Below are positions 2,699-38,968 of a stretch of DNA of 45,094 bases, piece after piece; position 1 is the stretch's first letter; every line of letters begins with the position of its first letter. The notes under the pieces are model-generated. The model did not search any database, had not been told where the DNA came from, and saw nothing but the letters and a program-made list of their open reading frames with translations. The stretch is from a virus, in IMG/VR virus record IMGVR_UViG_3300027782_000139, positions 1-45,094 of that record. One strand, 5' to 3'. The position numbers and the translations under genes were made by a program.

Positions 2699-3246
2699 TG
2701 ACAGTTCACAAACCAGTTGGTCTTGGTAGTTCTATTTCGGTTGTTTCTGGAACTGCAACAACTTCATCTACATTATCAATTCAAACAAAAGCATTAAGAG
2801 TTGTAGCAACTGCTCCAGCTTTTATTGCAATTGGAACAAACCCATCAGCAACAATTGCAGATTATTATGTGCCAAGTGGAGGAACTGCAGTTCTTGCATT
2901 AAGTCCAGCATCACAAAGAATTGTTGGAATCACAACAGGGACTACAACTACAATCACTTTTCCTGAAGGAACTGGATCACCATTTGAAGTTGGAGATTAT
3001 GTATCTTTAACTTCTGTGGGACAAACATACTACAACTTTACACATCAACCTGTGACGGCAGTTGATTCTTCAACTGGTTATAATGGTTATTATTCTACTA
3101 GAGTTAGTATTGGAACAAATACTTCAGGAATTTTAACTGCATTCTCTACTGATGGTAATTTGAGAAAATCTGTAAAAGTATCTGCATATGGAACTGGAGC
3201 AGGAACTTTATATTATCAACAAATTCAAATTGCTGGAGACGCATAA
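2698..3246 (+). CDS. Probable virion structural protein, unknown function
   Basis: A 182-residue Thr/Ser/Gly/Ala-rich, beta-strand-rich protein with no charged clusters, no signal and no membrane helix. It has GTTTTITFPEGTGSPF-type turns and resembles, in composition, the structural protein at 30642-31670. It lies between the prohead core gene and the protease, where T4 has gp68; it does not look like gp68, which is small and charged. A capsid-decorating or other head protein is plausible but not shown. It is translationally coupled to the upstream gene by a TAATG overlap. Confidence 0.6.
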   Translation: MTVHKPVGLGSSISVVSGTATTSSTLSIQTKALRVVATAPAFIAIGTNPSATIADYYVPSGGTAVLALSPASQRIVGITTGTTTTITFPEGTGSPFEVGDYVSLTSVGQTYYNFTHQPVTAVDSSTGYNGYYSTRVSIGTNTSGILTAFSTDGNLRKSVKVSAYGTGAGTLYYQQIQIAGDA

Positions 3247-3250
3247 ACAA

Positions 3251-3901
3251 ATGAAACTAATCACAGAAGAAGTACAAAAAGTTGAATTTATCGTTGAAGG
3301 AAAGGGTTCTGAAAAGAAAATGTTTATTGAAGGTATTTTCCTTCAAGGTGATCTAGAAAATAGAAACAAAAGACGTTATCCAACTCAAATTCTTTCCCGT
3401 GAAGTAAAAAGATATAATGAATCATTTGTAGAAAAAGGTCGTGCTCTTGGAGAGTTAGGACATCCAGATGGTCCTACAGTAAATCTTGATAGAGTTTCTC
3501 ATAAAATTGTTTCTCTCACTCAAGAAGGAAACAATTTTAGAGGAAAAGCACAACTTTTAGAAACACCAATGGGTAAGATTGCAAAATCTTTAATTGGTGA
3601 AGGTGTTATGTTAGGTGTTTCTTCTCGTGGTATTGGTTCATTAACTCCAACAAATGAAGGATATTCAGTAGTTGGTGAAGATTTTATGCTTGCTACTGCT
3701 GCTGATATTGTTGCAGATCCTTCTGCGCCAGATGCTTTTGTGAATGGGATTATGGAAGGAAAGGAATGGATTTGGGAAGGAACTATTTTGAGAGAAAAGA
3801 ATGCAACTAGCATTCAAAGAAGAATAAATACATTAGTTGATCAAAAGAGATTGGATGAACAGAAACTTAATCTGTTCAATGAATTTCTATCAAATTTATA
3901 A
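3251..3901 (+). CDS. 21: Prohead maturation protease gp21
   Basis: This 216-residue serine protease assembles in the prohead core and, after head assembly, cuts scaffold, capsid and internal proteins after (Ile/Leu)-X-Glu. Conserved family landmarks are NRNKRRYP near residues 38-44, LGELGHPDG near 66-74 (probable catalytic His71) and GVSSRGIG near 122-129 (probable catalytic Ser124/125), in the order of the T4 gp21/herpesvirus-protease-like family. ATG 3251 was chosen over upstream in-frame codons because it lies just after the preceding stop and begins the conserved MKLI sequence. T4 gp21 is 212 residues, a close match. Confidence 0.93.
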   Translation: MKLITEEVQKVEFIVEGKGSEKKMFIEGIFLQGDLENRNKRRYPTQILSREVKRYNESFVEKGRALGELGHPDGPTVNLDRVSHKIVSLTQEGNNFRGKAQLLETPMGKIAKSLIGEGVMLGVSSRGIGSLTPTNEGYSVVGEDFMLATAADIVADPSAPDAFVNGIMEGKEWIWEGTILREKNATSIQRRINTLVDQKRLDEQKLNLFNEFLSNL

Positions 3902-3948: not shown

Positions 3949-5127
3949 ATGTCCCGTGGTAACAATTTACAAGAAATGGAAACAGGCACTTCACAATCTC
4001 GCACTGCTGTAAATGCGAATGCAAAGGCAGGCGAGTCAATGCAGAAATTAGATGCAGGAGCAGTTGCTGGTCAAACTGGCAGTTGGGAAGATCTTGGTGG
4101 TCCTACCCCCGAGAACTACAAATCAACTGATGATTCAGCAAAATTAAAAACTCCTGGCGCAACGCTTAAGCAAGTTAAGGACGTTATCAACAAAGGTGCA
4201 AAACCTGCTGAAGCAATGAAGTCTATGAAGGAAGAGGAAGAACTTGAAGATGAAGATCTTCTTTCCGAAGCAGAAGAAAAAGAAGATGAAGGTAGTGAGG
4301 AAGATGATGCAGAAGATGCAAAAGAAAAGAAAAATAAAAAGTCCAAAAAGTCAGAAGACGAAGAGGATGGTGAAGAAGAAGATAAGCCTATGAAGGAAGC
4401 ATATGACATTGAAGAAGATGTTAATGCTCTTCTGGGTGGAGAAGATCTTTCCGAAGAATTCAAAGAAAAAGCAAAAATTATCTTTGAGTCAGCAATCAAT
4501 TCAAAGATTGTTGAAATTCAAGAATCACTAGAAGAATATTATGAAGCTCAATTAATTGAGCAAGTTGAAGATATGAAAATTCAACTTGCTGAAAGAGTTG
4601 ATTCATATCTTGAGTATGTATCTGATGAATGGATGCAGGAAAATGCACTTTCAGTAGAAAGAGGACTTCAGGCAGAAATGACTGAATCGTTCCTTTCTGG
4701 TCTGAAAGGACTTTTTGAAGAACATTATGTAACAATCCCTGAAGATAGATATGATGTACTTGAGAGTATGGTAGACAAACTTGATGAAATGGAGACAAAA
4801 CTCAATGAGCAAATTTCAAAGAACGTTGCTCTTAATCAAAAACTAGCAGAATCAGTTGCTGATGTAATTTTCAGTGATATTTCTGAGGGACTTGCAGTTT
4901 CGCAGAAAGATAAACTTGCTTCTCTAGCAGAAAGTGTTGAGTTTGAAAGTGAAGCAGAGTATCGTGAGAAACTAGTAACATTGAGGGAAGCTTATTTTCC
5001 AAAGAATGCTGGTACTCAAAGAGATCATTCAGAAACATTAACTGAAGAAGGTTTAACTTACAATCAACCAGTTTCTGGTTTGATGGAATCATATCTTCAG
5101 ACTCTGAATAGAGTTTCAAAAAAGTGA
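3949..5127 (+). CDS. 22: Major prohead scaffold protein gp22
   Basis: A 392-residue, highly charged scaffold protein. Residues about 95-155 form a run of Glu/Asp/Lys (EEELEDEDLLSEAEEKEDE and following), then long predicted coiled-coil helices to about residue 330. Scaffold gp22 fills the prohead core and is destroyed by gp21; LLSEA is one visible (Ile/Leu)-X-Glu cut site. T4 gp22 is 269 residues, so this is longer, as in marine relatives. A GGAGAG ribosome site lies 6 bases before ATG. A serine-rich open frame on the opposite strand over the acidic run is only its shadow. Confidence 0.88.
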   Translation: MSRGNNLQEMETGTSQSRTAVNANAKAGESMQKLDAGAVAGQTGSWEDLGGPTPENYKSTDDSAKLKTPGATLKQVKDVINKGAKPAEAMKSMKEEEELEDEDLLSEAEEKEDEGSEEDDAEDAKEKKNKKSKKSEDEEDGEEEDKPMKEAYDIEEDVNALLGGEDLSEEFKEKAKIIFESAINSKIVEIQESLEEYYEAQLIEQVEDMKIQLAERVDSYLEYVSDEWMQENALSVERGLQAEMTESFLSGLKGLFEEHYVTIPEDRYDVLESMVDKLDEMETKLNEQISKNVALNQKLAESVADVIFSDISEGLAVSQKDKLASLAESVEFESEAEYREKLVTLREAYFPKNAGTQRDHSETLTEEGLTYNQPVSGLMESYLQTLNRVSKK

Positions 5128-5176: not shown

Positions 5177-6574
5177 ATGCAAATGTTCAATGCAGAACAA
5201 TTGCAGGAAAAGTGGGCACCACTTCTAAACTATGAGGGTCTTGATAAAATCAAAGACTCGCATCGCAGAATGGTAACTGCAGTCCTGCTAGAAAACCAAG
5301 AAAAATTCTTAAGAGAGGAGCGTGACTTCCTCTATGAAGCACCAACCAACTCAGCTGGTACTGGTGGTTTCTCAAACACTGGAACTGGTGCAGTTGCTGC
5401 TGGTCCAGTTGCTGGTTTTGATCCAGTTCTTATTTCATTGATCAGACGTTCAATGCCTAACTTGGTCGCTTATGACCTCGCTGGCGTTCAACCAATGAAC
5501 GGTCCTACTGGACTCATCTTCGCAATGCGTTCACGTTATACTAACCAGTCTGGAACTGAAGCACTCTTCAACGAAGTAGATACTTCATTCTCTGGCGAAA
5601 ACGCAGGTCAGAACCTCACGGGTTCCTTCACTGATGGTGTTGCTGGTTTTGGTACTACTTCAAGCCCAGCAGGAACAAATCCAGGTCTTCTCAACCCAGT
5701 TGGAACCGCTGCAACCAATAGCTATGCTACTGGTCAAGGAATGAACACTGGCGATTCTGAAAATCTTGATGGTAGTGGCGCTAGTGCGTTCAACCAGATG
5801 GCATTCTCAATTGAGAAAGTCACTGTTACTGCAAAGTCAAGAGCACTCAAAGCTGAGTATTCATTAGAACTCGCACAAGACCTCAAGGCTATCCACGGTC
5901 TAAACGCAGAAGCAGAACTTGCTAACATTCTCTCAACTGAAATCCTCGCTGAAATCAACAGAGAAGTTATCCGCACAATCTACAAGATTGCAGAGCAAGG
6001 CGCTGCTGTTAACACTGCTACCGCTGGTATTTTTGACCTTGACGTTGATTCCAACGGTCGTTGGTCAGTTGAGAAGTTCAAAGGACTTCTATTCCAAATC
6101 GAGCGCGATGCTAACGCAATCGCACAAAGAACTCGTAGAGGAAAGGGTAACATGATCCTCTGCTCGGCAGACGTTGCTTCGGCACTCACCATGGCAGGTG
6201 TTCTTGATTACACCCCAGCACTTAACGCTAACCTCAACGTTGATGACACCGGAAGCACCTTCGCTGGTGTTCTCCAAGGTAAGTATCGTGTTTATATCGA
6301 TCCTTATGCTGCTAACGTTTCATCTAACCAATACTACGTTGTTGGTTATAAGGGTTCTTCACCTTATGATGCAGGACTATTCTACTGCCCATACGTTCCC
6401 CTTCAAATGGTTCGTGCAGTTGGCGAGAACAGCTTCCAGCCAAAAATCGGGTTTAAGACTCGTTATGGCATCGTTGCTAACCCATTCGCTGAAGGCACTG
6501 CACAAGGTTCTGGTCGTCTTCTTGCTAACGCAAACCGTTACTACAGAAGAGTCCGCGTTGACAATTTAATGTGA
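5177..6574 (+). CDS. 23: Major capsid protein gp23
   Basis: The HK97-fold capsid subunit, 465 residues (T4 gp23 is 521). Landmarks are the N-terminal MFNAEQLQEKWAPLLNYE and the propeptide junction FLYE/APTNSAG, which fits the gp21 site (Leu-X-Glu, then Ala) and predicts cleavage after Glu54. An AAAGAGG ribosome site lies 8 bases before ATG 5177; a second ATG at 5183 is possible. Codon use is richer in C-ending codons than in neighbouring genes (for example AAC and TTC), as expected for the most highly expressed protein. A strong terminator follows immediately. Confidence 0.97.
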   Translation: MQMFNAEQLQEKWAPLLNYEGLDKIKDSHRRMVTAVLLENQEKFLREERDFLYEAPTNSAGTGGFSNTGTGAVAAGPVAGFDPVLISLIRRSMPNLVAYDLAGVQPMNGPTGLIFAMRSRYTNQSGTEALFNEVDTSFSGENAGQNLTGSFTDGVAGFGTTSSPAGTNPGLLNPVGTAATNSYATGQGMNTGDSENLDGSGASAFNQMAFSIEKVTVTAKSRALKAEYSLELAQDLKAIHGLNAEAELANILSTEILAEINREVIRTIYKIAEQGAAVNTATAGIFDLDVDSNGRWSVEKFKGLLFQIERDANAIAQRTRRGKGNMILCSADVASALTMAGVLDYTPALNANLNVDDTGSTFAGVLQGKYRVYIDPYAANVSSNQYYVVGYKGSSPYDAGLFYCPYVPLQMVRAVGENSFQPKIGFKTRYGIVANPFAEGTAQGSGRLLANANRYYRRVRVDNLM

Positions 6575-9591: not shown

Positions 9592-10059
9592 ATGAAAGAA
9601 AAGAAAAAGAATCCTAATTATGTGAATAATAAAGATTTTCATGATGCATTGATTACTCATAAGAGAAGACTGGAAGAATCAAAAACTAATGGTCTTCCAC
9701 CACCAAGGATTTCTAATTATCTTGGCGATTGTTTTTTGAAAATTGCTACTCACTTATCATATCGTCCAAACTTTGTAAATTATATGTTTCGTGAAGATAT
9801 GATTTCAGATGGTGTAGAAAATTGTGTTCAATACATTAACAATTTTGATGTCAATCGTTCAAATCCATTTGCTTACTTTACTCAAATTGTTTGGTATGCT
9901 TTCTTAAGACGCATTTCAAGAGAAAAGAGACAAATGGAAATTAAAGAAAAGATTATTGAACGCAGTGGATTTGAAGAAGTGTTTACTGCTGATCAAGGAT
10001 TTAATAGATCAGATTATAATACAATTAAAGATAATATTCAAATTAAATTGAGTCAATGA
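9592..10059 (+). CDS. 55: Late-transcription sigma factor gp55
   Basis: A 155-residue divergent sigma-70-family protein (T4 gp55 is 185). It directs host RNA polymerase to TATAAATA late promoters, several of which occur in this window. The conserved core is visible as YLGDCFLKIATHLSYRPNF, MISDGVENCVQYINNFD and NPFAYFTQIVWYAFLRRI, matching sigma region 2, which binds the polymerase beta' subunit and the -10 DNA. The C-terminal clamp-binding tail is short. It has its own host-type promoter, and its stop overlaps gp47 by four bases. Confidence 0.95.
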   Translation: MKEKKKNPNYVNNKDFHDALITHKRRLEESKTNGLPPPRISNYLGDCFLKIATHLSYRPNFVNYMFREDMISDGVENCVQYINNFDVNRSNPFAYFTQIVWYAFLRRISREKRQMEIKEKIIERSGFEEVFTADQGFNRSDYNTIKDNIQIKLSQ

Positions 10060-26082: not shown

Positions 26083-26090
26083 GATAAATA
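26083..26090 (+). promoter_or_regulatory. Late promoter (GATAAATA) before head protein genes
   Basis: GATAAATA lies just after the stop of the preceding gene and 19 bases before the nucleotidyltransferase-like gene. It differs from the T4 late consensus at one position. Confidence 0.5.
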
Positions 26091-26108: not shown

Positions 26109-27296
26109 ATGAAAAGTTTTTCCCAATTTATTAAAGAAGCAGTAGATACACTTGCATCTACTGAAGCAAAGAATCGTGGTCTTAAGGGAGATGGTCATGG
26201 AGACTGGTATGATAAACAGGGCAATCTTGTAGCAAAAACTGTAGGTGGAAAGTTAAAATATTTCGGTCAGGGTGGTGCTGGAACTCAACAACAACAAGCA
26301 CCACAACAACAAGCAACATCACAACAGAAACAGGCAGCACCACAACAAGCAACACAGCAACAAGAAACAGAACCAGAACAAATTAATGGTGTTACAATTG
26401 TAATTGGAAGATTTAATCCTCCATCTAAAAATCACGGAGCATTATTGAAAGCAGGATTTGCTCAAGCAAGAAGAAGAGGATTTGAGTATCGCATTTATCC
26501 AAGTCGTATTCAGGATGATAAAACAAATCCATTAAATCCAAAATTAAAGATTTCTTACATGCAGTCAATGTTTCCAGATTATGCTGATTATATTGTAGAT
26601 AGTCAAGATTCAAAATCTATTTTTGATGTATTGGCATCTTTATATGAAGATGGATATACTGATGTCGTAATTGTTGCTGGACAGGATAGACTTGGTGAAT
26701 TCCAAAGTCTTGTTCATAAGGGTGATGGTCAAGCATACCAATTCAATAATATTGAAGTTGTTACATCTGGAGTAAAAGATCCTGATAGTGAAGTAGAAAC
26801 TGCTGGTTCTTCTGCTTTGATGAGAGCTGCTGCAGCAATTGGAGATTTTGCTAGATTCTCCACTGGACTTCCACCAACAATGAAAAAAAGTGAGCAGAAA
26901 GAAATGTTTAATACTATTCGTAGATCTATGAGTGTTCAAGAAGACACTGAAATATGGAGAATTGCTCCAGAATTAGATTATGAAGGATTAAGATGGAATT
27001 ATAAAAATAAAGGTCTTTATGAAGTTGGTAATTTAATTGAAAATTTGAATAGCGGATTGGTTGGTAAAGTGATTCGTCGTGGAACAAATTATTTGATTTG
27101 TGTTACAGAAGATGGGATAATGTTTAAGAATTGGTTGAAAGATGTTCGTGAAGTATATGAGATTGGAACTGATGAATATAGAGCACACGTTCAGGGAGAA
27201 ACTCCAGAACAAGAAGTTAAATCATATACCAATGTGAGAATCAAACCTACAGTGTCAAAAAAATCTATAAATATCAATAGAAAAAGAAGTATCTAG
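26109..27296 (+). CDS. Nucleotidyltransferase-like protein with capsid-targeting-like N-terminus
   Basis: A 395-residue modular protein. Residues 1-11, MKSFSQFIKEA, closely resemble the capsid-targeting sequence of T4 internal proteins (MKTYQEFIAEA), including the gp21 cut Ile-X-Glu before Ala. Residues about 57-92 are a Gln/Ala/Pro-rich linker. Residues about 95-285 are a cytidylyltransferase/NMN-adenylyltransferase-type Rossmann domain (VTIVIGRFNPPSKNHGALL, GQDRLGEFQSL). The usual TxGH/HxGH signature is SKNH here. Residues about 300-375 look like a small beta-barrel (GLVGKVIRRGTNYLICV). It may be a head protein ejected with DNA; substrate unknown. Confidence 0.7.
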   Translation: MKSFSQFIKEAVDTLASTEAKNRGLKGDGHGDWYDKQGNLVAKTVGGKLKYFGQGGAGTQQQQAPQQQATSQQKQAAPQQATQQQETEPEQINGVTIVIGRFNPPSKNHGALLKAGFAQARRRGFEYRIYPSRIQDDKTNPLNPKLKISYMQSMFPDYADYIVDSQDSKSIFDVLASLYEDGYTDVVIVAGQDRLGEFQSLVHKGDGQAYQFNNIEVVTSGVKDPDSEVETAGSSALMRAAAAIGDFARFSTGLPPTMKKSEQKEMFNTIRRSMSVQEDTEIWRIAPELDYEGLRWNYKNKGLYEVGNLIENLNSGLVGKVIRRGTNYLICVTEDGIMFKNWLKDVREVYEIGTDEYRAHVQGETPEQEVKSYTNVRIKPTVSKKSININRKRSI

Positions 27297-27301
27297 GTAA
27301 A

Positions 27302-28522
27302 ATGAGAACTTGGAAAGAAATCATAAAAGAAGCAACTGCTCGTGAAACACGCAAGGCAGGTGAAGCAGCTTTGAAGGAAATACAAGCAGAAAATAAAAAA
27401 GACAAAAAGACAAAAGATGAATCTGCATATACAAAATATTTAAATAAGCAACATAAATTTAAAGTAAAAAAATATGAAGAACAAAAGAAAGCACAAATTG
27501 AAAAGTTGAGACAAAAAGGAGTTCAACAGCACGTAGATAAAGCAAAAGCATCTATTTCTGGAATCAAAACTCAACAAATTAGCGATAAAGAAGGAGATGC
27601 TACTGCATATTCAAAAGCAATTGGAAATGTAGGTTCTGCTGCTGCTGGTGTTGCTGGTGCTGCATATCACGGGACACGAGCATTATTGGCAAAAAGATCT
27701 GCTGCAAAAAAGGCAGCAGAAGTAAAAGCAAATCAAATAGAAAAAAAACAACCAAAAGCAGGAGGTAGACCTTCTGCTCCTGCACCAGCAACTCCTGGAA
27801 CTGGTGCTCCAAAACCAACTGGTCCTGTCCGTCCTTCAATTGGTAATGTAACTGGACCTGCTTCTAATCCTAAACGTCCTAATCCTCCAGCAAAACCAAC
27901 TGGTCCTGTCCGTCCTTCAATTGGTAATGTAACTGGACCTGCTTCTAATCCTAAACGTCCTAACGGAATGAGAACGGAAGAATATTCTAATTGGAGAGAA
28001 GAATTTCTCTATGAAGTTGATACTGAAAAAGCAAATACTAAAGAAAAAAAGAAAGATATTGTTGATGTGATGAAAGGTAAAAATAAAATTGAACTCAATC
28101 CAAAAGAAGGACAAGTAAAAGAATCAATTGAAACGGAAAATACTGGAATGGATGTAAAAAAAAAACAGCAACTGACGCAACAAATTGCACTTCAAAAAAA
28201 AATTCAAATGGCTAAATTGACACAATTGAATAAAGGAATTCCACTTGAATCTTATGAATTGGAAGGAAATTCAATTGATGAAGAAGGTCCAGTATTATCT
28301 GTTGGAAGAGGTGAGAAACTTTCAGTAGAAAGAGGTGGTGGACTTACTCAAAAAGGTAGAGATAAATACAATCGTGCAACTGGTTCAAATCTTCAAGCAC
28401 CAGTAACTGGTGATGTAAAACCAGGAAGTAAAGCAGCACAACGCCGTAAGAATTTCTGTTCTCGTAGTAGAAGTTGGAAAGGCGAAAGAGGTTTAGCAGC
28501 AAGAAGACGTTGGAAGTGTTAA
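27302..28522 (+). CDS. Basic head-associated protein with DUF6321-like C-terminus
   Basis: A 406-residue Lys/Ala/Pro-rich protein. The N-terminus MRTWKEIIKEA resembles a capsid-targeting peptide with a gp21 site (Ile-X-Glu before Ala). Residues about 5-80 are charged helix; about 171-221 hold two identical Pro-rich repeats; FLYEV near residue 238 is another possible protease site. The last 60 residues (GLTQKGRDKYNRATGSN … NFCSRSRSWKG … ARRRW) are strongly basic and match the DUF6321 pattern of phage proteins. DNA binding inside the head is plausible; nothing is demonstrated. Confidence 0.6.
   Translation: MRTWKEIIKEATARETRKAGEAALKEIQAENKKDKKTKDESAYTKYLNKQHKFKVKKYEEQKKAQIEKLRQKGVQQHVDKAKASISGIKTQQISDKEGDATAYSKAIGNVGSAAAGVAGAAYHGTRALLAKRSAAKKAAEVKANQIEKKQPKAGGRPSAPAPATPGTGAPKPTGPVRPSIGNVTGPASNPKRPNPPAKPTGPVRPSIGNVTGPASNPKRPNGMRTEEYSNWREEFLYEVDTEKANTKEKKKDIVDVMKGKNKIELNPKEGQVKESIETENTGMDVKKKQQLTQQIALQKKIQMAKLTQLNKGIPLESYELEGNSIDEEGPVLSVGRGEKLSVERGGGLTQKGRDKYNRATGSNLQAPVTGDVKPGSKAAQRRKNFCSRSRSWKGERGLAARRRWKC
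27811..27963 (+). repeat. Perfect 72-bp direct repeat within head protein gene
   Basis: Bases 27811-27882 recur identically at 27892-27963, period 81 bp (27 codons), so the reading frame is kept. Each copy encodes a Pro/Gly/Asn-rich segment of 24 residues beginning KPTGPVRPSIGNVTGPASNP. Complete nucleotide identity, including third positions, indicates a recent duplication or ongoing homogenisation. Confidence 0.97.
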
Positions 28523-37201: not shown

Positions 37202-38968
37202 ATGTCTGGAACTTTTAAGTTTAAAAGATTTTACAGTGAAGGTGTTGCAGCAGAACATCCAGATATTGCAGGGCAAAAAGAATTTGCAAATAAAGCAGAT
37301 GCTGAAGTTGCTCGTAGAAGAGCAGCAAGAGCAAAGAAAGCAGGACCACAACTTCCTGGTTTTGTTGCGTCAGTAAAGAAAGAAGAAGTAGAAGTTAGTG
37401 AAGCAAAGGTTGATAATAGTCTATCAAGAAGTGAAAAGGAAACAGCAAGAAATAAAAGAGCAGGAATAACAAATAATCCTTATATTGGAAATGAAAGAGG
37501 ACAAAACAGATATAGAACAGATAGGCATATGTTTAACTGGGGAGAAAAAAAACAAAGAGGAAAAAAAGAAGATAATTGGACGAAAACCAAATTTATTAGA
37601 GATAAGACAGGTAAAGTTACAAAATATCAAGATTGGCACGTAAGCAATCAAAATGATAGAAGAGCAAGAATAGAAACCGAAGAGTTTGAACTTGGTGAAA
37701 AGATTGATGTAGGTGCTGATGTTAGTAAAACAATCAGTGATTTTGTTCATTCAAAAAACAAAACCTTTAAGGGTGATAGTAAGAAGCAAAGAATTAATAG
37801 AGCACTTGGCGCTTATTATGGTGCTCAAAAAGAAGAAACTGAAATGAAAGATAAAGATCCTTGCTGGAAAAATTATAAAATGGTTGGCACCAAAAAGAAA
37901 GGATCAAAAACAGTTGCAAATTGTGTTCCAGAAGAAATTGATTATAGTGATGCTTATGATTATGTAATTGAAACTTTGATTGAATGTGAATTTGTAGAAG
38001 ATGTTGATTCTGCAGAAAATATGTTTGATGCTTTAAGTGAAGGTTTTGTGTCTGTAATTCTTGAAGAGTATATTGAAGAAGCAAAACGTCCAAAATCTCA
38101 AACAAGAACAGCAAATGCTGGAAAAAAAGGATATGATGCTAAAGGAAATCCAATTCCCAAAGTAAGCACAACACACGTTATACACGATGTAGATGATAAT
38201 CTTGCAGATCAAAGATCCAAAGATGCTGCTAAAATTGATGTGATGAGAAATAACACTAAAACAAAATCATTAACTCCTGGCCAGTTTGCTCATCATAAAT
38301 TGGAACCTGGTGATAAATATGGATTTAATGCTTTTAGAGATGCTAAACTTTTTAAAGATACTACTAAACCAATTAAACCAGTAGCTAGAATAGGAGATAG
38401 CAAAAAAAGATCAGCAAAAAAATCTGTTGTTACTGCTCGTGGCGGATCTGCATTTGGAAGCAATAAACCCAGCACTCCTATGGACGAATCGTTTGCAAAA
38501 GATTTGAGAGACAGAATTGGAGTAAGAGGTATAGAAAAACCAAATATTCATTTTACTGGTGGAATGAGTAAGGGATCAAATAAAGGTCTTTCTGGTCCTG
38601 AAAAAAAGGCTAAAGTAGTTGCACAGATTGTAAAACCAGATACCAAAAAGGTAATTACAACTGATGATCACCTTGGCAATACAAGAGCTATGGCTGCTGC
38701 CGCAAGTGCTGCTGCACCACAGGCTAAAGTTATAGCATACCAATCAAGACCTTCTACAAGAAAACCAAAAGGAAAAGGAAAGGTTGGAGATATAGTTCCA
38801 TCCAGAGTTGGTAAAGAAAATAAACCAGAAGATACAAATATAGGAATAAGATCCAAACCAGATGCTCCAAAATCTACTACAGAAACACAAAGAGCACGTA
38901 AAAAAGCAAGAAAGAATATGGGAGAAGAAATGACTCCATACGAATACTGGAAGCAATATATTGCTTGA
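37202..38968 (+). CDS. Large basic virion protein, probable internal head protein
   Basis: A 588-residue Lys/Arg/Ala-rich protein from ATG 37202. The N-terminal 120 residues are charged and low-complexity. Residues about 255-300 form a helical module (YDYVIETLIECEFVEDVDSA … LSEGFVSVILEEYIEEA), also found once in the protein at 39150. EYIEEA fits a gp21 site (Ile-X-Glu before Ala). The rest is disordered, basic and Pro-rich, ending MGEEMTPYEYWKQYIA. A late promoter, the protease site and basic composition suggest a packaged head protein. Function unknown. Confidence 0.55.
   Translation: MSGTFKFKRFYSEGVAAEHPDIAGQKEFANKADAEVARRRAARAKKAGPQLPGFVASVKKEEVEVSEAKVDNSLSRSEKETARNKRAGITNNPYIGNERGQNRYRTDRHMFNWGEKKQRGKKEDNWTKTKFIRDKTGKVTKYQDWHVSNQNDRRARIETEEFELGEKIDVGADVSKTISDFVHSKNKTFKGDSKKQRINRALGAYYGAQKEETEMKDKDPCWKNYKMVGTKKKGSKTVANCVPEEIDYSDAYDYVIETLIECEFVEDVDSAENMFDALSEGFVSVILEEYIEEAKRPKSQTRTANAGKKGYDAKGNPIPKVSTTHVIHDVDDNLADQRSKDAAKIDVMRNNTKTKSLTPGQFAHHKLEPGDKYGFNAFRDAKLFKDTTKPIKPVARIGDSKKRSAKKSVVTARGGSAFGSNKPSTPMDESFAKDLRDRIGVRGIEKPNIHFTGGMSKGSNKGLSGPEKKAKVVAQIVKPDTKKVITTDDHLGNTRAMAAAASAAAPQAKVIAYQSRPSTRKPKGKGKVGDIVPSRVGKENKPEDTNIGIRSKPDAPKSTTETQRARKKARKNMGEEMTPYEYWKQYIA

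Follow-up and report, generated by a model that had tools for sequence, protein, structure and literature searches.

The protein encoded at positions 26109-27296 (plus strand, 395 amino acids) of a T4-type cyanophage contig is, in our judgement, quite probably a head cargo: it would be made late, docked into the prohead by an N-terminal tag, cut by the prohead protease gp21 and ejected with the DNA. A preliminary description of this DNA had noticed that its first 11 residues, MKSFSQFIKEA (encoded by 26109-26141, plus strand), resemble the peptide MKTYQEFIAEA of T4 internal proteins. Comparison with T4 IpII and IpIII (AF158101), which share this N-terminus, confirmed the resemblance, and shuffles and position-specific conservation exclude chance as its source.

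The window analysed here is the whole of IMG/VR contig IMGVR_UViG_3300027782_000139 (45,094 bases). Its gp23 is 80% identical to those of S-SSM7 and Sf-FS3 and 79% identical to that of P-SSM2, which by sequence places the phage as a P-SSM2/S-SSM7-like T4-type cyanophage. Portal, gp21, gp22, gp23 and the late sigma factor gp55 are all encoded on the contig; the earlier statement that gp21 lies in the same DNA was borne out, with gp22 and gp23 adjoining it:

3188-3901, plus strand: gp21 prohead protease (Peptidase_S77, E = 1.2e-37; PHROG 207)
3949-5127, plus strand: gp22 scaffold with several [LIF]xE sites (T4_CASP, E = 2.1e-76; site scan)
5177-6574, plus strand: gp23 major capsid protein with a predicted gp21 cut at DFLYE54/A55 (Gp23, E = 2.7e-150; a slash marks the cut here and below)
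9592-10059, plus strand: gp55-type late sigma factor (PHROG 234 late sigma, E = 3.2e-61)

The gene at 26109-27296 lies downstream of mazG and adjoins a gene for a DUF6321 protein. It was assigned to PHROG 395/3041 'cytidyltransferase' (PHROG 395, E = 2.4e-77), and P-SSM2_194, annotated T4-GC190, aligns with it from residue 1 in an identical gene order. It is thus homologous over its full length, and syntenic, with the cyanophage T4-GC190/PHROG 395 family, a core gene of cyanophages. The following features were recognized in and around it:

26083-26090, plus strand: T4-type late promoter box GATAAATA (also given as NATAAATA; family-wide upstream scan)
26109-26138, plus strand: capsid-targeting-type propeptide MKSFSQFIKE, with predicted removal by gp21 (conservation; comparison with T4 IpII/IpIII; predicted helix 4-11)
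26139-26270, plus strand: leader mini-domain, residues ~11-54, a helix and a small beta sheet (AF2 pLDDT ~85 for residues 20-50; HMM)
26271-26381, plus strand: Gln/Pro/Ala-rich disordered linker, residues ~55-91 (pLDDT 37-50)
26382-26933, plus strand: HIGH-type nucleotidylyltransferase domain, residues ~92-275, with GRFNPPSKNH and GSSALMR (Foldseek; PHROG 395/3041)
26934-27293, plus strand: C-terminal region, in which a small stretch resembling a beta barrel is conserved at residues ~305-348 (AF2 secondary structure)
27302-28522, plus strand: neighbouring ORF with a weaker capsid-targeting-like N-terminus MRTWKEIIKE/A, a DUF6321 C-terminus (Pfam), a mature pI of 10 and its own late box

Mutagenesis of T4 IPIII has shown that residues 4 and 7 serve mainly targeting, and residues 8 and 10 processing (PMC9026906). 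The window protein has the same arrangement, with aromatic residues at 4 and 7, a hydrophobic residue at 8 and Glu at 10. Among 120 distinct N-termini of its relatives, Phe stands at position 4 in 119 and at position 7 in all 120, position 8 is I, L, F or V in all 120 and position 10 is Glu in 118; residue 11 is largely held and mostly small (Ala in 87, Ser in 22), and residues 3, 5, 6 and 9 are free to vary. As read from this alignment, the positions under constraint are precisely those that govern targeting and processing in T4. The first set of relatives was gathered partly through a leader pattern (HGDWYDKQ), and because such selection could bias the motif count, the search was repeated with the enzyme domain alone. 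The motif was present in 76 of the 79 untruncated relatives found in this way, the other three being near misses, and selection bias was rejected as the source of the conservation.

We also searched all loci with the strict form of the pattern. Among ~6,000 ORFs that are 70 amino acids or longer it matched 187, with 0-3 matches per round when the residues after the initial Met were shuffled. Most matches belonged to the nucleotidyltransferase family (164/187); two were T4 IpII and IpIII themselves, and others were ORFs at the neighbouring position that begin MTYWEKYI[FS]E, the virion-detected protein gp136 of S-CREM2 and a handful of small proteins. A looser pattern also matched uvsX (21420), which was judged a false positive, and the aromatic form was for this reason used for all claims. 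The homologues of enteric jumbo phages have no tag, their N-terminus being that of the enzyme domain itself, and the homologue in Pelagibacter phage HTVC008M lacks Glu10. In open papers we found no literature linking cyanophages to a capsid-targeting sequence; the sole overlap of the two terms was one paper with a cyanophage study in its reference list.

The predicted cut in the window protein, FIKE/A, has the same form as that of the window gp23, FLYE/A. The predicted gp23 sites of S-CREM2 (LLTE/A) and S-SZBM1 (ILTE/A) extend this agreement, such that over three phages the gp23 cuts FLYE/A, LLTE/A and ILTE/A match the tag cuts FIKE/A, FLTE/A and FIIE/A. With gp21 encoded on the contig and a cut motif shared with other gp21 substrates, the window protein is likely trimmed by this protease; we know of no N-terminal peptide that demonstrates cleavage in any cyanophage.

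The T4 late promoter box is read by gp55. The ATAAATA core of the box before the window gene starts 25 nt upstream of the start codon, and of 127 distinct family members 58 have a late box in the 60 nt before the gene, as compared with 3.2 at random positions. In the window ATAAATA appears 20 times on the plus (coding) strand and once on the minus strand, an asymmetry from which late boxes can be read directly. Of 30 non-replication genes, 8 have such a box in front, and of 17 replication or nucleotide genes none has one (p = 0.019); the genes with a box include those for portal, gp22, the tail tube, the window protein and its neighbour at 27302.

Two further products of the window have possible gp21 sites. 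The basic protein at 27302-28522 is likely a second head cargo or a core protein; similar neighbouring ORFs in 12 loci begin MTYWEKYI[FS]E. It also contains an internal site, NWREEFLYE/V, which resembles the gp23 site. The long protein at 37202-38968 has the N-terminus MSGTFKFKRFYSE/G and a TATAAATA box 30 nt upstream, and is a possible further gp21 substrate.

Published proteomes allow the family to be followed into particles. Orthologues of the window protein (T4-GC190, 'cytidylyltransferase/NMNAT') were found by mass spectrometry in virions of S-SM1, S-SCSM1 (ORF91), S-SZBM1 (S-SZBM1_140) and S-CREM2 (ORF154), with small peptide support for some (3 peptides in S-CREM2, 2 in S-SZBM1). The proteome authors suggested that proteins of this kind may be carried into the host to act on NAD, or may be contaminants, and the idea of virion carriage and host entry has been published without the tag (PMC9602691, PMC10665884). 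The virion association of the family is therefore already known, and the tag is what is new relative to the literature searched.

In S-CREM2 (218 usable CDS, 52 of them detected by mass spectrometry) the aromatic motif is present in five CDS, four of which are virion-detected. After removal of known structural genes, the motif marks 4 of the 28 detected proteins but only 1 of the 166 that were undetected (p = 0.0016; p = 0.0008 when the motif may start anywhere within the first 20 residues). The tagged and detected proteins include a SAM hydrolase/lyase, an APH-like kinase, the cytidylyltransferase and, with a loose motif, a Cas9-like annotated protein. In S-SZBM1 the motif is present in four ORFs, of which only the nucleotidyltransferase was detected, with no enrichment. 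The rule that the tag predicts virion proteins is thus supported by the S-CREM2 proteome and not by that of S-SZBM1. Two adjacent small ORFs of S-SZBM1, S-SZBM1_191 and _192 (L005:22314-23125), begin MKSFKSFLSES and MKTFKQYITEA and are good candidates for capsid targeting; neither was detected by mass spectrometry.

Behind the tag lies the leader mini-domain, about 40 residues with the motif AKxxGLxGDGHGxWYDxxGxxVAKTxxGKLKYF. An HMM profile trained on nucleotidyltransferase leaders only matched the S-CREM2 kinase gp14 (3.6e-12, the better of two copies), S-CREM2 gp12 (4.9e-13), ACG-2014f gp190 (6.5e-16) and S-CRM01 g128 (3.6e-14), and weakly the S-CRM01 kinase (0.006). A capsid-targeting-like peptide stands upstream of the module in each of these matches. 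S-CREM2 gp12 and ACG-2014f gp190 belong to PHROG_3561, and both the leader-bearing kinase and the nuclease-like PHROG_3561 protein of S-CREM2 are virion-detected. Because the same module is found in nucleotidyltransferases, kinases and PHROG_3561 proteins, the leader is, by profile comparison, modular across three unrelated protein types.

The kinases with the loading leader are S-CREM2 gp14 (L007:10579-12846, module twice) and S-CRM01 g130 (L094:3701-6166), and the PHROG_3561 proteins with the leader, or with a diverged version, are S-CREM2 gp12 (L007:7704-10313), ACG-2014f gp190 (L095:774-3452) and an S-B05 protein (L092:3983-6046). The PHROG_3561 leader proteins are variously annotated as Cas9-like, cytidyltransferase or hypothetical; in S-CREM2 gp12 an HNH-like stretch, DHVIGRS...NLVLDRRGLNQFK, was spotted by eye. 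The cytidyltransferase annotation of ACG-2014f gp190 probably stems from the leader alone. Searches for relatives in viral contigs returned one locus for ACG-2014f gp190 and none for the S-CREM2 kinase.

The preliminary description further proposed that an injected enzyme could act on host cofactors or proteins, and here the evidence is divided. The fold stood: Foldseek of the predicted structure returned the NadD/NMNAT/CoaD fold (best E = 8.6e-6). The catalytic (T/H)xGH motif did not, as the window protein has SKNH in its place and its clade SKNH or SKLH, a replacement that appears as a single change on the long branch leading to this clade; (T/H)xGH is kept in 46 of 60 aligned relatives. The active-site region of the clade (26382-26933) is otherwise conserved. 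The window protein had no Pfam or NCBIfam match, while PF01467 was matched by 43 of the 60 relatives. A sequence search of solved structures returned nothing for the window protein, and the family profile gave weak NMNAT matches only. In the C-terminal region G316, G319, R323, G325 and W342 are invariant. Since the window clade has lost (T/H)xGH, an enzymatic role for the modelled domain is uncertain.

The protein can be compared with several known systems. It shares with T4 IpI, IpII and IpIII the MKx[YF]xxF[I/L]xE propeptide with the same determinant positions, as well as gp21 and gp22 in the genome. However, the T4 internal proteins are small (~8-20 kDa) and basic and inhibit GmrSD enzymes, whereas the window protein is 43 kDa, near-neutral, of nucleotidyltransferase fold and equipped with an extra leader mini-domain. 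It also resembles T4 Alt, a large enzyme-like head cargo whose short N-terminal propeptide is removed by gp21; yet Alt is a packaged and injected ADP-ribosyltransferase of different fold and chemistry, with a 7-residue propeptide and an additional C-terminal cut (PMC9026906). A further counterpart is T4-GC190, which is orthologous and virion-detected, and whose P-SSM2 gene occupies the same place between gp41/mazG and gp61/nrdA; it was reported without a targeting tag, and the window clade differs by SKNH against (T/H)xGH. NadD, NadM and NadR share the HIGH-type fold, but at 12-18% identity, and the window clade has a degenerate HIGH motif and no Nudix or kinase partner domain.

It is conceivable, and in our view unlikely, that the tag does bring the protein into the prohead, where it serves as a core or assembly component with the nucleotidyltransferase fold as a binding module and no injected effector. 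The effect of T4 IPIII on the rate of head assembly (PMC9026906) fits such a role, as do the retention of the C-terminal barrel and leader in a clade that lost (T/H)xGH and the status of T4-GC190 as a cyanophage core gene. However, the persistence of (T/H)xGH and PF01467 in most relatives suggests an enzyme, and a leader that also sits on kinases and nuclease-like proteins is implausible as a scaffold.

It is far less probable that the N-terminus is an amphipathic helix with another role, such as binding a membrane or partner, and that the virion detections are abundant late contaminants. Two proteome papers raise contamination, the authors of the S-CREM2 study noting that such proteins may be co-purified, and the tag peptide is predicted to be helical; but an amphipathic helix would have no need of Glu10, followed mostly by small residues as in gp23, the constraint matches the T4 positions, and such proteins were detected again in each of four or more independent phage preparations. 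The motif is short, with five constrained positions, and a coincidental likeness to the T4 tag might be suspected from this; the shuffle controls reject it (10 of 200,000 shuffles of the window N-terminus fit the pattern, and the 187 ORFs matched compare with 0-3 in shuffled sets), leaving it practically no weight.

We therefore return to the protein as ejected head cargo. Capsid targeting, as first proposed, is strongly supported by the match to the T4 determinants, the near-invariant motif, the gp23-like cut, the late box and the orthologues in published virion proteomes. We infer docking, cleavage, ejection and host action of the window protein as follows. The gene would be transcribed late from its own gp55-type promoter, and MKSFSQFIKE would dock the product into the prohead core formed by gp22, in the manner of T4 capsid targeting. 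A gp21 cut after Glu10 would leave in the head a protein of ~43 kDa, comprising the leader domain, a flexible linker, the NadD/NMNAT-like nucleotidylyltransferase domain and the C-terminal barrel. At infection the protein would exit the head with the DNA and act in the first minutes. Packaging in the head is likely, and injection into the host is probable by analogy with T4. More tentatively, at somewhat under even chances, the capsid-targeting peptide and mini-domain may form a transferable leader swapped among unrelated enzymes, delivering variable effectors into cyanobacteria at infection, with the nucleotidyltransferase of the window clade shifted to a new activity or a non-catalytic role.

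Cyanophages shape ocean photosynthesis, and to our knowledge the proteins that they inject are essentially unknown. The tag offers a reason for the recurrence of NMNAT-like enzymes in cyanophage virion proteomes, where they were previously suspected to be cargo or contamination. Being near-invariant in this family and present on unrelated enzymes, it can be used to find proteins carried in particles, and with such an N-terminal sequence rule the genome of any T4-like marine phage could be scanned for candidate injected effectors.
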